Source: Eumeta japonica (lineage: Eukaryota > Arthropoda > Insecta > Lepidoptera > Psychidae). From it: a DNA stretch of 64,000 nt. The first letter of the stretch is position 1. Every line of letters begins with the position of its first letter. Below the pieces are notes generated by a model, which saw only the letters and a list, made by a program, of their open reading frames with translations, was not told where the DNA came from and did not search any database. Below, piece after piece: positions 19,336 to 42,671 of this stretch. The stretch covers positions 682,001-746,000 of the forward strand of contig BGZK01000099.1 of the NCBI GenBank assembly GCA_005406025.1, read 5' to 3'. Position numbers and translations under genes: made by a program.

Positions 19336-19923
19336 TTTTTGACGTGACAACGTCTTATAAATTGGTTTGCCGGGTGACACTTCAAGAAACTGCGTTACGC
19401 TCCGCTCACGTTATGCGCTCACAATGAGAGCGAGTGAGAGGCACGCGTCCCTTCCACTCGGGCATGGTTAGCCCGCCTAAGAGCGAGAGAGACAGAAAAA
19501 GTGAAAGGCACGCGTCCCTTCCACTCGAGCACAGTTAGCCCGCCCAAGAGCGAGAGAGACAGAGCGAGAGAGAGAGAGAGAGATAGGCATACACACCGGT
19601 TCATGTCTTGCGCTTCTATTTCGCTTAGGCGCCTGCATACAAGTTTACACGTTGCCAGTTAATTGTAAAACGATTGTGTAGTGATAATGTGAAGGTAGTT
19701 ATATTTGTATATAAATACGTATGTATGTGTAAAGGTAAAAATAAAATTTTGTTAATATGAAATTCAGTGCGAGATTCTTTGTATAAATAAATGTTTTAAA
19801 TTGTTACTATTATTTCATCCTTCTTCCTACTATACGAATGAATATTCACATTAAAATGATTTTACCACTCAAAGTCGTTGTCACGTAAAACTTTCGCCCG
19901 TATACCGACTTTACAGGCAACCA
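19336..19923. mobile_element. Interspersed repeat, copy A (inverted ends, internal tandem duplication)
   Basis: The left end TTTTTGACGTGACAACG (19,336-19,352) is nearly the inverse of CGTTGTCACGTAAAA (19,876-19,890). The unit continues to ..ctttacaggcaacca at 19,923. Inside, a GC-rich segment of about 66 bp is tandemly duplicated (19,434-19,499 and 19,500-19,565), each copy containing gcacgcgtcccttccactcg and agagcgagagagacag. A (GA)n run follows at 19,564-19,584. The last about 218 bp are almost identical to copy B at 21.56-21.81 kb. No coding capacity; probably a non-autonomous DNA element. Confidence 0.7.
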
Positions 19924-38541: not shown

Positions 38542-38557
38542 AATAGGCATGATGACA
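38542..38557 (+). repeat. Left terminal inverted repeat of the transposon
   Basis: AATAGGCATGATGACA. If AT (38,543-38,544) is the target duplication, the element begins AGGCATGATGACA at 38,545. The match to the right end stops abruptly outward and weakens inward, apart from a shared ACTATAAT block. Confidence 0.85.
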
Positions 38558-38885
38558 GTAACTAAAAATTACTATAATTATGTATTTATTCAACAATACT
38601 TGAGTGATGGATTACAAAGTACTCCTTTATATTTTAATTATGAGCGAGATTACTAATTATTTTTATAAAATAAATTTACAAAATACGGTAAATCGCCATG
38701 ATATATTGAACACCAATCAGAGCCAATTACGTCACCGTTGAAATCGACACTACGAGCACTGTGAAAACGCGTACATCTTGTAGCTTTGGACAACTCCTGT
38801 GGCTTTAATTACCATTTCATTACGTTTGAAACAGTACTTAGCCTAAATTTAGTGTTATTAAAACGAAGGTGAAACTACGCAAGTC

Positions 38886-40335
38886 ATGGAACAAGGATTT
38901 AGTAAGGCAAACAGTACTAATTTGCCTAGAATCCACTTGTTGATGCTGGGAGAGTTTTTGGCATCAAACAAAGACTTTTGTTCAGCAGAATTTAGAAATG
39001 TCAAAACTTCCATGTAAGTAAAACATTAGATGCCTACATTAAATAATATTTTAAAAATTAAGTAATAGATCTAAAACACCATTAAATGTATTTCATATTA
39101 ATATTTGAGGTTATGGTAATGAATTTATTTTTTATAATGTGTCTTGTTTTATATTTATTCATTGTTTTTCTTATTTTAGGTCCTCCAGACCATCCTATGG
39201 CGATGATGCTGTAAGTTATGTACAACTTAAACGCGAAGGAGACATCTGCATAGTAAAATGTAAAGTTTGCCCGGAACATAAAGTCCATGCAAAGTTGTAT
39301 AGCGTGACTTTAATAATGGACGAACAGGAAGAGGCAGTTAAATCAATAGAATGTCACGATTGTGTGGCTTCACAAGGAGGCTGCAAACATGCTATAGCAT
39401 TTCTGATGTGGATACATCGCAGGAGTGAGGAACCATCCTGTACATCCGTCGAATGCTATTGGATGAAATCCAAACTTTCCAGGGCTGGAAGTACTCTAAA
39501 ATATTTAACAGCTAGCGAAATGTCTAATGCTAAACCTAGCTTGCCATCAAATACAGAAGTATTTGAAAAGTTTCTAGAGGAAGGGAAGAAAAGGAGGCTT
39601 AATAACTGCGAGGTAATAAAATACCAAAATGACTATGTTTTTGACCAAACAGAAAGTTTGTCTATGCATACATTGGTGCTGAAATATAAAGAAAGGTCCT
39701 GTGACAGATTTTTGGAAAAAATTGCATTGTCTGATGCTGATGTTTATAATATTGAAAAGTAACAAGAGCCCAACATGACAGTACCTTATGGCATGAGTTG
39801 AGATATGGCAGAATAACAGCTTCACGAGCATTTGAATTCAGTCGGTGCAAAACCAATGATGGCACACTGATCGCATTAATAATGGGTGGAAAACTCCTGA
39901 CACATTGGCTATGAAACGGGGCAGAATATTGGAAGATCAAGTAAGGAAGACAGTGAGTATAAAACTTGGAAAAAAAATTAACAAGTGTGGTCTCATAGTT
40001 TCTAAAATACATCCTATGATAGCAGGATCGCCTGATGGGATCTGTGAAGATAGTATCATTGAAATTAAGTGTCCCACGAGTGCAAAAACTTTAAAAAAAT
40101 ATGTATGTGATGGGAAACTAACGCAGAAGTTTTATGTACAGGTGCAGCTCCAAATGTACTTGACAGGACTTAAAAAAGGCTACTATTGTGTTGCTGATAG
40201 TGACTACAGTGAAAATAAAATGTAGAAATAGTTAGTGTTATGTATGATGAGAAATATGTATCAAATTTTCTGAATATTATTGTTTCTTCATGGAAAGATA
40301 ATGTGTATCCATTATTATACAGAAGTATTTCTTAA
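38886..40335 (+). pseudogene. SWIM zinc-finger / YqaJ-like recombinase-nuclease of the transposon, frameshifted
   Basis: Exon 1 (38,886-39,013) starts MEQGFSKANSTNLPRIHLL. A 166-bp intron (GTAAGT ... TTTTAG) leads to exon 2 at 39,180, continuing SSRPSYGDDAVSYVQLKREG. A SWIM-like motif C-x2-C-x6-C-x-H (ECHDCVASQGGCKHAIAFLM) lies at about 39,349-39,408. The YqaJ part shows LWHELRYGRITASR (about 39,780-39,830), GSPDGICEDSIIEIKCP with its putative metal-binding Asp (40,034-40,036) and Glu-x-Lys (40,061-40,069), and QVQLQMYLTG. The family is PD-(D/E)xK, lambda-exonuclease-like, so 5'-3' exonuclease activity in strand processing or recombination is likely. Frameshifts occur near 39,759, 39,896 and 40,219, where reading resumes in another frame and ends TAA at 40,333-40,335. 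A polyadenylation signal AATAAA is at 40,346. About 430 codons in total. No in-frame nonsense codon is seen besides those created by the shifts. Confidence 0.85.
39014..39179 (+). other. Intron 1 of the YqaJ gene
   Basis: GTAAGT donor at 39,014 and a pyrimidine-rich acceptor ending ttattttAG at 39,179. Splicing joins AT to G to make a Met codon and keeps the frame into SSRPSYGDD. A short in-frame extension into the intron (MSCFIFIHCF...) is an artefact of open reading through it. Confidence 0.75.
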
Positions 40336-41619
40336 CATTTATGTAAATAAAATGCAACTTTTAAAAATATGTTTTATTTAATTAATGAATCTTGTATGTT
40401 CACTAAACCACAAGCAATGGTGATGACATCATCAAGCACTTTTACTAAGTTGTGGTTGACATGCATGTGGCTTCAACATATTAAATTCCCGTAATCGTCT
40501 AATCACTCTCTCCACATGTATTCTCAGGCTTGCAATTTGTTTTGTTTCTCTGACCTCACTTTTAGACAGTTTTGCCCCAGTTGTTACACTCGGAGGCCGT
40601 ACTAACTGCACTCCCTCTTTCCGTAAATACTGTTCAACATGTTTGAACCCTCTGTCTGCCATCACATACATGCCAGGTTGTAAACACCTTATAAAGTCAC
40701 ATTGTTCCACCAAACATGTATCCGTTATTCTTCCTCCGTAGCCTGGTGAAATGTAATTAATCAAACCATTTGGTGTACAGGACACAAGATATTTGATGGT
40801 GTTAGCCTTTTTGTATTCTGACCATGAGAGAGCTTGATGTAAGGCTTTCGAAGGCTTTTGCACCTCTATTTCTAGGCAATCTATGATGCAAGTCACATTG
40901 TGATATTTGTGCCTAAAAGCCATCGGTAATTTTTTAATTAATTCATTATCTAATTTCACTAGAAATGGACGTATTACACTAGCAATTACTGGAATATTTT
41001 TAAAAATATTTTGCTTGCGTAAGTCGGAGTCATAGAGAAATCATCAGCGAGCTCTCTGAATGGGTTATTTAATCTAATTTTTTTTAAACACATAAGTATA
41101 TGATTTGCAGGAATATTAGTTTTTTCTTTAATTATATCAATTAGGTAGTAGCAACTTTTAGGCACACCAATATAAAACCGTGGATTTTTTGTTATTTTAG
41201 CAAAGTGTATTCCAGAATTTTTGATGCTTCTTGTTTTTTATCTTTTCCAATTAATTCGCTGCAGTCTGAAGTAGATTTCATCTGTTGGGATATTGTTGAT
41301 GGTGATGATTCTCTATGTGTACTAGATGGTGCAAATGAGATATCACTATCAGATTCTTCCTCAATTGTAAAAAGTTTCCTAGAATATTTCTGTATCATGG
41401 ATGTAGATGGCTTGGCAGTAATGCAACTTTTAATTTTAAATGGTGATGTGGAAACAGATTGGTTAAAAGGTTTCAAAGGTGATGTCATCTGGTTTACTAA
41501 ATTCATTTCTGTTTGTATGGCTTTACTTCTGTATTTATATGTTATGAGTACTTGAGTTGCTTTATCCGCTGACTTATGTGAATCTTTTTGTGAAGTATTT
41601 TCTATATGAGCTTGTGAAA

Positions 41620-41816
41620 CTGAAAGAGAAAAAAAAAACATAAATACAATACAGAATACCCACGTCTACATACTCATATTATGCAATGCTAAGAATTGGT
41701 TACCTAACAATGACAAGTTATTCAATTTGTAGCATTGCTTTATTGATCACACAAGAAATAGATATTTTTATTCAAGAAAATGAAGTACATTTTAATACAG
41801 ATAAATATGTAGTTAC
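41620..41816 (-). other. Intron 2 of the transposase gene
   Basis: On the minus strand GGAATTTCCG|GTAACT and TCTCTTTCAG|TTTCACAAG. Joining gives GIS-(G/V)-SQAHIEN in frame. The donor is GTAACT. The polypyrimidine tract (T10, then CTCTTTC) is strong. Confidence 0.7.
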
Positions 41817-42075
41817 CGGAAATTCCAGAAGAGCTCTCTCCGACTTCCACCTGTTTTGTAGTAACAGATCTTTCTTCTAAATCTTTCTCACATTCTTTAA
41901 TTAATGTCAGTCTTTGTTTTTTGAGAATATATGGTCGTTTAGTAGCATTGAATGTTCGTTTTCTTCGATCTGGTTGACATTGAAATTTTGAGGGCATACA
42001 TGCTGGTTTCATGCGAACCTGTGACACCGATCCCATCACATGATATTCCATATAATTCTCCATATCATTTGGTAA

Positions 42076-42229
42076 CTGAAATATTAATAAAAATCTATTA
42101 AGATAGATAACATCAGAGCAAGATGGGATCTAACCTCAAAACATATTGTTTATTATTTAATTCATACCTCTGACAAGATTATTGTACCACATACTACTTT
42201 AGAATCAACAAAACCAAATACAAACTTAC
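42076..42229 (-). other. Intron 1 of the transposase gene
   Basis: On the minus strand GAC|GTAAGT at 42,229 and TTTCAG|TTACCAAAT at 42,076. Splicing gives CEDHFD-LPNDMENY in phase 0, completing the THAP C2CH zinc ligands before the linker. Confidence 0.75.
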
Positions 42230-42655
42230 GTCGAAGTGATCTTCACAAAAATAAAGGTGAGCAGTAGGCAATATCCCTGTTGCATCCCGCCTTGCAAGTT
42301 TTAGCCACTTGTCTCGTATCGTTTTCTTTTGTGGAACGAATACAAATAACTTATTAGGTGTTTTATAGATGTGTTATTACACTGGGGTACCGCACAACCT
42401 CTATACACTTTGGAATTCATATTTAATAGCACAAAATAACTAAAGTATTCAATGAGCGTCTTATGTTTACGTTTTGGTTATTCAACCGTGACGTCAGAAG
42501 CGACGCTTTGACACTGACAAGCGTTTTGGTGGGAATTGAAATTTTATAAACTAAAATGTCTTTAAAAATATCTAAAACTTTGATTTTAGCAGAAATATGT
42601 TACTCATTATTAATAATGTATATTTCTGAGCATTATAGTACAGTTTTTAAAAAAT

Positions 42656-42671
42656 TGTCATCATGCCTATT
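42656..42671 (-). repeat. Right terminal inverted repeat of the transposon
   Basis: TGTCATCATGCCTATT, the exact reverse complement of 38,542-38,557. The element proper ends at 42,668 if AT at 42,669-42,670 is the target duplication. Confidence 0.85.

Follow-up and report, generated by a model that had tools for sequence, protein, structure and literature searches.

A young ISL2EU transposon family in the bagworm moth Eumeta pairs a transposase with a predicted lambda-exonuclease-type nuclease

ISL2EU elements are a group of the PHIS superfamily described as inserting into A/AT/T targets with duplication of AT (slashes mark boundaries), and as encoding a transposase with THAP, HTH and DDE parts together with a second open reading frame (ORF) for a YqaJ protein (Han et al. 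2015, PMC4482050; here and below, publications are cited from the accessible portions of their texts). The pairing of a DDE transposase with YqaJ has thus already been reported as a trait of the group (PMC4482050, PMC9179366). The terminal inverted repeat (TIR) usually begins with GG, a tendency that is not absolute. Where other PHIS groups have an additional ORF, it encodes a Myb/SANT protein, and the paper describes what these ORFs do as unknown (PMC4482050).

Here we analysed a window of 64,000 nucleotides from the bagworm moth Eumeta japonica/variegata (contig BGZK01000099.1), which contains a full-length transposon of 4,124 bp (38545-42668) with AT-flanked, 13-bp inverted ends. The element almost certainly belongs to the ISL2EU kind and represents a young, well-bounded new family of this known kind, in which the gene pairing itself is already published; as a genomic object it is ordinary. 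To the published trait our analysis adds evidence for conservation, constraint and co-inheritance of the nuclease, and it names residues for testing. Overall, we consider it likely that this is a recently active cut-and-paste family with a selected lambda-exonuclease-type nuclease, a reading that does not take a resection step as proven.

Ends, target site and copies of the element

The TIR reads AGGCATGATGACA; it starts with AGG and has GG at its positions 2-3. The boundaries AAT/AGG...CCT/ATT were found exactly, or one mismatch off, in 28 of the 30 oriented copies, and the flanks differ. In the remaining two (L029 and L030) the right-hand matches were shortened or split. Flank similarity to other compared sequence was seen only for L004, L021 and L028 among 26 copies tested. 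A chance origin of the ends is ruled out by the exact 16-mer end, which had 142 matches genome-wide against none for a reversed control. By chance, about 1.2% of random sites would read AATT (arithmetic from the base composition in PMC6488591).

Paralogous empty sites for three copies (L028, L025 and L002) carry a single, unduplicated A/AT/T target. The joined flanks of L028 align to a repeat in the flank of L002, spanning the junction at 74% identity over 391 columns with GGAATTG unbroken. Joined flanks of L025 and L002 were matched elsewhere in 38 and 2 of 40 listed places, and the four places read out, two for each copy, show the junctions CATAATTTC and TCTAATTGC without duplication. Because these junctions carry one unduplicated copy, the duplication is AT and the target A/AT/T. 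A TA duplication with GG..CC ends is ruled out, as the empty sites read show AATT only. The search covered 8 joined flanks out of 26 usable copies, with 40 of 1,435 candidates scored; two of the eight gave scored spanning paralogs, and at this coverage the silence of the other six means little. The repeat hit by the L028 insertion (L002:309-657) presumably resembles a mariner-type transposase coding region.

The genome contains at least 30 near-full-length copies. The whole-genome search gave at least 46 matches, the top 30 of them near full length; this count is a lower bound, with 39 of 538 candidates scored. Over about 4.1 kb, each of the copies L001-L019 differs from the majority by 2-22 substitutions, and the family has therefore moved recently. 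Capture of a host gene by chance is ruled out, since in 30 copies the repeated unit includes the two genes. The sequence-only reading had described a full-length element here, with readable ends and a 2-bp duplication; it was correct almost to the base, and the further copies share the ends it had proposed. The refuting outcome that it had named, a lack of other copies or ends that miss the boundaries of the copy-to-copy alignments, did not arise.

The nuclease protein has at least 126 six-frame matches in the genome, the window family included (98 of 1,094 candidates scored). Three related two-gene elements (L039, L040 and L041), fetched from these matches, show about 69-73% identity in the main DNA matches. 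In a search allowing 4 mismatches, the end motif was present at both ends of L039 and at the right end of L041, and was not found at the right end of L040. Furthermore, eight of the 142 genome-wide 16-mer matches were fetched, and they include non-autonomous elements. L031, L034, L037 and L038 (about 1.28 kb) as well as L032, L033 and L035 (about 1.1 and 0.5 kb) share the 16-bp end of the window family, although for L033 no right end was found. Longer internal matches between the non-autonomous elements and the window family have about 66-85% identity. These elements seem to be derived from a related ISL2EU family, which may also mobilise them.

Two convergent genes and their interrupted frames

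The element carries two convergent spliced genes, a nuclease gene of two exons and a transposase gene of three, with stop codons about 40 bases apart (Table 1). Splice signals are retained in 28-30 of the 30 copies; in the nuclease intron the donor GTAAGT occurs in 29 of 30 copies and the acceptor TTTAG in all 30. The gene arrangement proposed from the sequence alone is thereby confirmed.

Table 1. Features of the transposon in the window
Feature	Position	Strand	Remarks
Target site duplication AT, left	38543..38544		target A/AT/T; empty sites of other copies
Left 13-bp TIR	38545..38557	+	
Nuclease exon 1	38886..39013	+	GT donor follows
Nuclease exon 2	39180..40335	+	SWIM-like zinc module and YqaJ/lambda-exo domain; frame interrupted in window copy as assembled
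Transposase exon 3	40374..41619	-	HTH_Tnp_4 and DDE_Tnp_4; frame interrupted in window copy as assembled
Transposase exon 2	41817..42075	-	splice signals
Transposase exon 1	42230..42420	-	THAP domain; splice signals, Pfam match on reading from copy L004
Right 13-bp TIR	42656..42668	-	
Target site duplication AT, right	42669..42670		

The transposase matches the Pfam families DDE_Tnp_4 (5.8e-38) and THAP (7e-10), both above cut-off, and HTH_Tnp_4 below threshold (2.6e-4; 21 bits against a cut-off of 27). Two presumed catalytic residues, assigned from the motif, are invariant in 22 aligned transposases (D393 and D468, P0122 numbering), and the third, E516, is nearly so. The earlier assignment to ISL2EU with a THAP-DDE transposase is thus upheld by the target, the duplication and both genes, which agree with most of the published description.

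The second gene product matches YqaJ (2.9e-15; 57.3 bits against a cut-off of 22) and also Viral_alk_exo, and a YqaJ match was obtained in 55 of 56 aligned relatives. A predicted model and the sequence profile point to the fold of lambda exonuclease, with the active site conserved and with a 5′-phosphate pocket, in which R251 is the equivalent of the 5′-phosphate arginine R28 of lambda. The VIA-align structural matches are a second look at Foldseek's list and do not exclude families outside it. Across the 56 aligned rows the active site is kept almost without exception, and the nuclease is probably catalytically competent in intact copies. The relationship to phage lambda-type enzymes suggested previously is therefore supported by both sequence and predicted fold.

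In front of this domain lies a module with presumed zinc ligands that match the active site in conservation: C101, C104 and C111 occur in all 56 rows and H113 in 55 of them. The ligand motif of SWIM is CxCx(n)CxH. The pattern found here, C101-x2-C104-x6-C111-x-H113, does not fit it. The Pfam SWIM family is absent from the two families matched by the protein P0001 (E up to 1) and from the 25 listed of the 36 families found over the 56 relatives, the 11 unlisted ones ranking below single-member families. The module resembles SWIM but fails on both the Pfam match and the ligand motif, so that membership is not established; in the original designation as a “SWIM/YqaJ nuclease”, the YqaJ part holds and the SWIM part is not supported. 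No further gene such as an annealing protein was noticed among the listed ORFs of the element, although no search was aimed at one, and a tRNA scan gave nothing useful.

The conservation of the zinc ligands also fits a cofactor whose main task would be DNA binding or nuclear import, mediated by its zinc module, with nuclease activity being secondary. A role of this kind is attributed to the Myb-like protein of Harbinger. Moreover, where other PHIS groups possess an additional ORF, a Myb/SANT protein takes the partner position (PMC4482050). For a pure binder, however, the near-exceptionless conservation of the active site would be superfluous, and we regard a helper role of this kind as rather unlikely.

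As assembled, both genes of the window copy are frame-shifted. The transposase is interrupted in all 29 copies in which its start was located (no start could be located in L029, the thirtieth), and 29 of 30 copies have an interrupted nuclease, as would be expected if the window copy, and perhaps the whole family, were a truly dead relic with real frameshifts. However, single-base deletions (249) outnumber substitutions (219) in 20 young copies (L001-L019 and L023), and 165 of the deletions fall in homopolymers of at least five bases, which make up 4.8% of the element. The bagworm assembly was made with Canu from nanopore v9.4.1 reads and polished with Pilon (PMC6488591). We infer residual nanopore assembly error from the homopolymer pattern; short reads polish repeats poorly, so most frameshifts would be assembly errors, an argument resting on the homopolymer bias and the indel-to-substitution ratio. 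Real pseudogene decay as the main cause was rejected on the homopolymer-biased deletions. In addition, an intact nuclease gene of 428 amino acids is present in one of 30 copies (L006, protein P0001) and an open 407-amino-acid reading of transposase exon 3 in L009, and we consider a dead relic very unlikely. In the public bagworm assembly, the repeat represented by the window copy and L001-L030 retains many homopolymer deletions, and matching public gene models (EVAR_...) are mostly partial. Elsewhere in the window (19433-19563), a 67-bp unit is tandemly duplicated with 92% matching, adjoining an AG run.

Constraint and possible role of the nuclease

In comparison with L039, L040 and L041, the proportion of nonsynonymous differences (pN) of the nuclease is 0.147, 0.160 and 0.217, at near-saturated synonymous proportions (pS) of 0.64-0.75. 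For the transposase the corresponding pN values are 0.276, 0.199 and 0.176 in exon 3 and 0.244, 0.206 and 0.203 in exons 1-2, those against L039 being inflated by frameshifted matches. Hence, two of the three comparisons show stronger constraint on the nuclease than on transposase exon 3. Moreover, nuclease and transposase distances correlate over 19 pairs (Mantel r 0.73; highest permutation 0.44; 0 of 9,999 as high), drawn from the best 120 of 257 and the best 120 of 398 hits and paired by contigs of equal reported length as a proxy for the same contig; one extra pair was dropped as its contig was too short for both genes. Since the nuclease is about as constrained as the transposase between related elements and both genes are co-inherited, it is probably a selected working part.

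Several observations weigh against our reading. The nuclease is less constrained than transposase exon 3 in the third comparison. The near saturation of pS between elements makes the estimate of constraint coarse, and the ratio of nonsynonymous to synonymous rates (dN/dS) of yqaJ is finite only for L039 (0.115). Within the family, substitutions are nearly neutral (omega about 0.5-1.1), as expected after insertion, and shared host phylogeny could inflate the Mantel correlation. The transposase is interrupted in every copy with a located start and none of the 30 copies has both genes open; activity of the family is therefore deduced from its youth. Furthermore, the conserved active site is silent on which DNA ends are acted on, and no paper on a biochemical role or activity assay of an ISL2EU nuclease was found in a literature search from which subscription papers were mostly absent.

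In a tree of 41 hand-picked rows, beetle nucleases are scattered among those of moths and butterflies, with seven label changes forced for seven beetle rows; the YqaJ relatives set against Lepidoptera were P0007, P0020, P0046, P0104 and P0119. A protein of the weevil Ceutorhynchus has 80% identity to the Eumeta nuclease over 91%. The scatter suggests repeated horizontal transfer, or contamination.

We propose that the THAP/HTH/DDE transposase would bind the ends, excise the element and insert it into A/AT/T, giving rise to the 2-bp AT duplications; target and duplication are observed, and the cut-and-paste chemistry is inferred from the DDE family. The second gene would provide a predicted lambda-exonuclease-type 5′-3′ nuclease preceded by a zinc-binding N-terminal module that resembles SWIM, and selection would maintain this protein as a functional component of the element. 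This nuclease could engage the 5′-phosphorylated DNA ends made by transposition and resect them, and resection could steer repair of the donor break, or of the freed ends, towards homology-directed repair. We put this resection role forward tentatively, as somewhat short of an even chance. The earlier suggestion that cut-and-paste is coupled to end resection or recombination is thus made plausible, but is not shown in the literature found. SWS1 is a SWIM protein. As a member of the Shu complex it promotes RAD51-dependent repair, according to the accessible literature, which would fit the resection model, but SWIM membership is not established for the Eumeta nuclease.

In a different division of labour, like that of the heteromeric Tn7 transposase, the nuclease would be an endonuclease responsible for the 5′ strands at the element ends, leaving cleavage of the 3′ strands to the DDE protein. 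TnsA shares the PD-(D/E)XK nuclease fold. In Eumeta, nuclease and transposase are encoded in one element and are co-inherited. YqaJ proteins likewise belong to the PD-(D/E)XK superfamily (PMC3118119). However, the conserved features are those of an exonuclease recognising 5′-phosphate ends (R251/lambda R28). Moreover, the sister group Spy encodes a DDE transposase only (PMC4482050), and Spy transposases are active in cell assays (PMC11304231). This DDE lineage can therefore in general do without such a partner, which disfavours an obligatory TnsA-like second-strand cutter, and we judge a TnsA-like role improbable.

Returning to resection, one may speculate, with more doubt than for the role itself, that ISL2EU elements carry a dedicated end-processing module, in which a lambda-type 5′-3′ exonuclease with a zinc module resembling SWIM recombination factors would create 3′ overhangs at transposition breaks, couple cut-and-paste to homology-directed gap repair and thereby raise copy number. 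If true, this would give a eukaryotic transposon a Red-like resection enzyme of its own. The young family, with its defined target and ends and its conserved nuclease site, makes 5′-end resection a concrete, testable hypothesis.

Comparison with known systems

The Eumeta element shares with published ISL2EU elements the A/AT/T target with AT duplication, the THAP, HTH and DDE transposase, the YqaJ protein and an animal host, and its 4.1 kb is similar to their average of about 4.8 kb (PMC4482050). It differs in a TIR starting with AGG where GG is usual; in the accessible portions of PMC4482050 a SWIM-like module is not mentioned and Eumeta is not named as a host. Spy has a related DDE transposase and an A/T-rich palindromic target, but inserts into AAATTT without duplication and encodes the transposase only, whereas the Eumeta element duplicates AT and carries a nuclease (PMC11304231, PMC4482050). 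PIF/Harbinger elements likewise combine a related DDE transposase with a second ORF, but with a 3-bp TWA duplication and a Myb/SANT partner in place of AT and YqaJ (PMC4482050). With lambda exonuclease and LHK-Exo, the nuclease shares the predicted fold, the catalytic residues and the 5′-phosphate arginine, but it is transposon-encoded and stands behind a SWIM-like zinc module. Finally, Tn7 with TnsA/TnsB also unites a nuclease and a DDE transposase in one element, whereas the Eumeta element has an exonuclease-type 5′-end pocket and only two genes.
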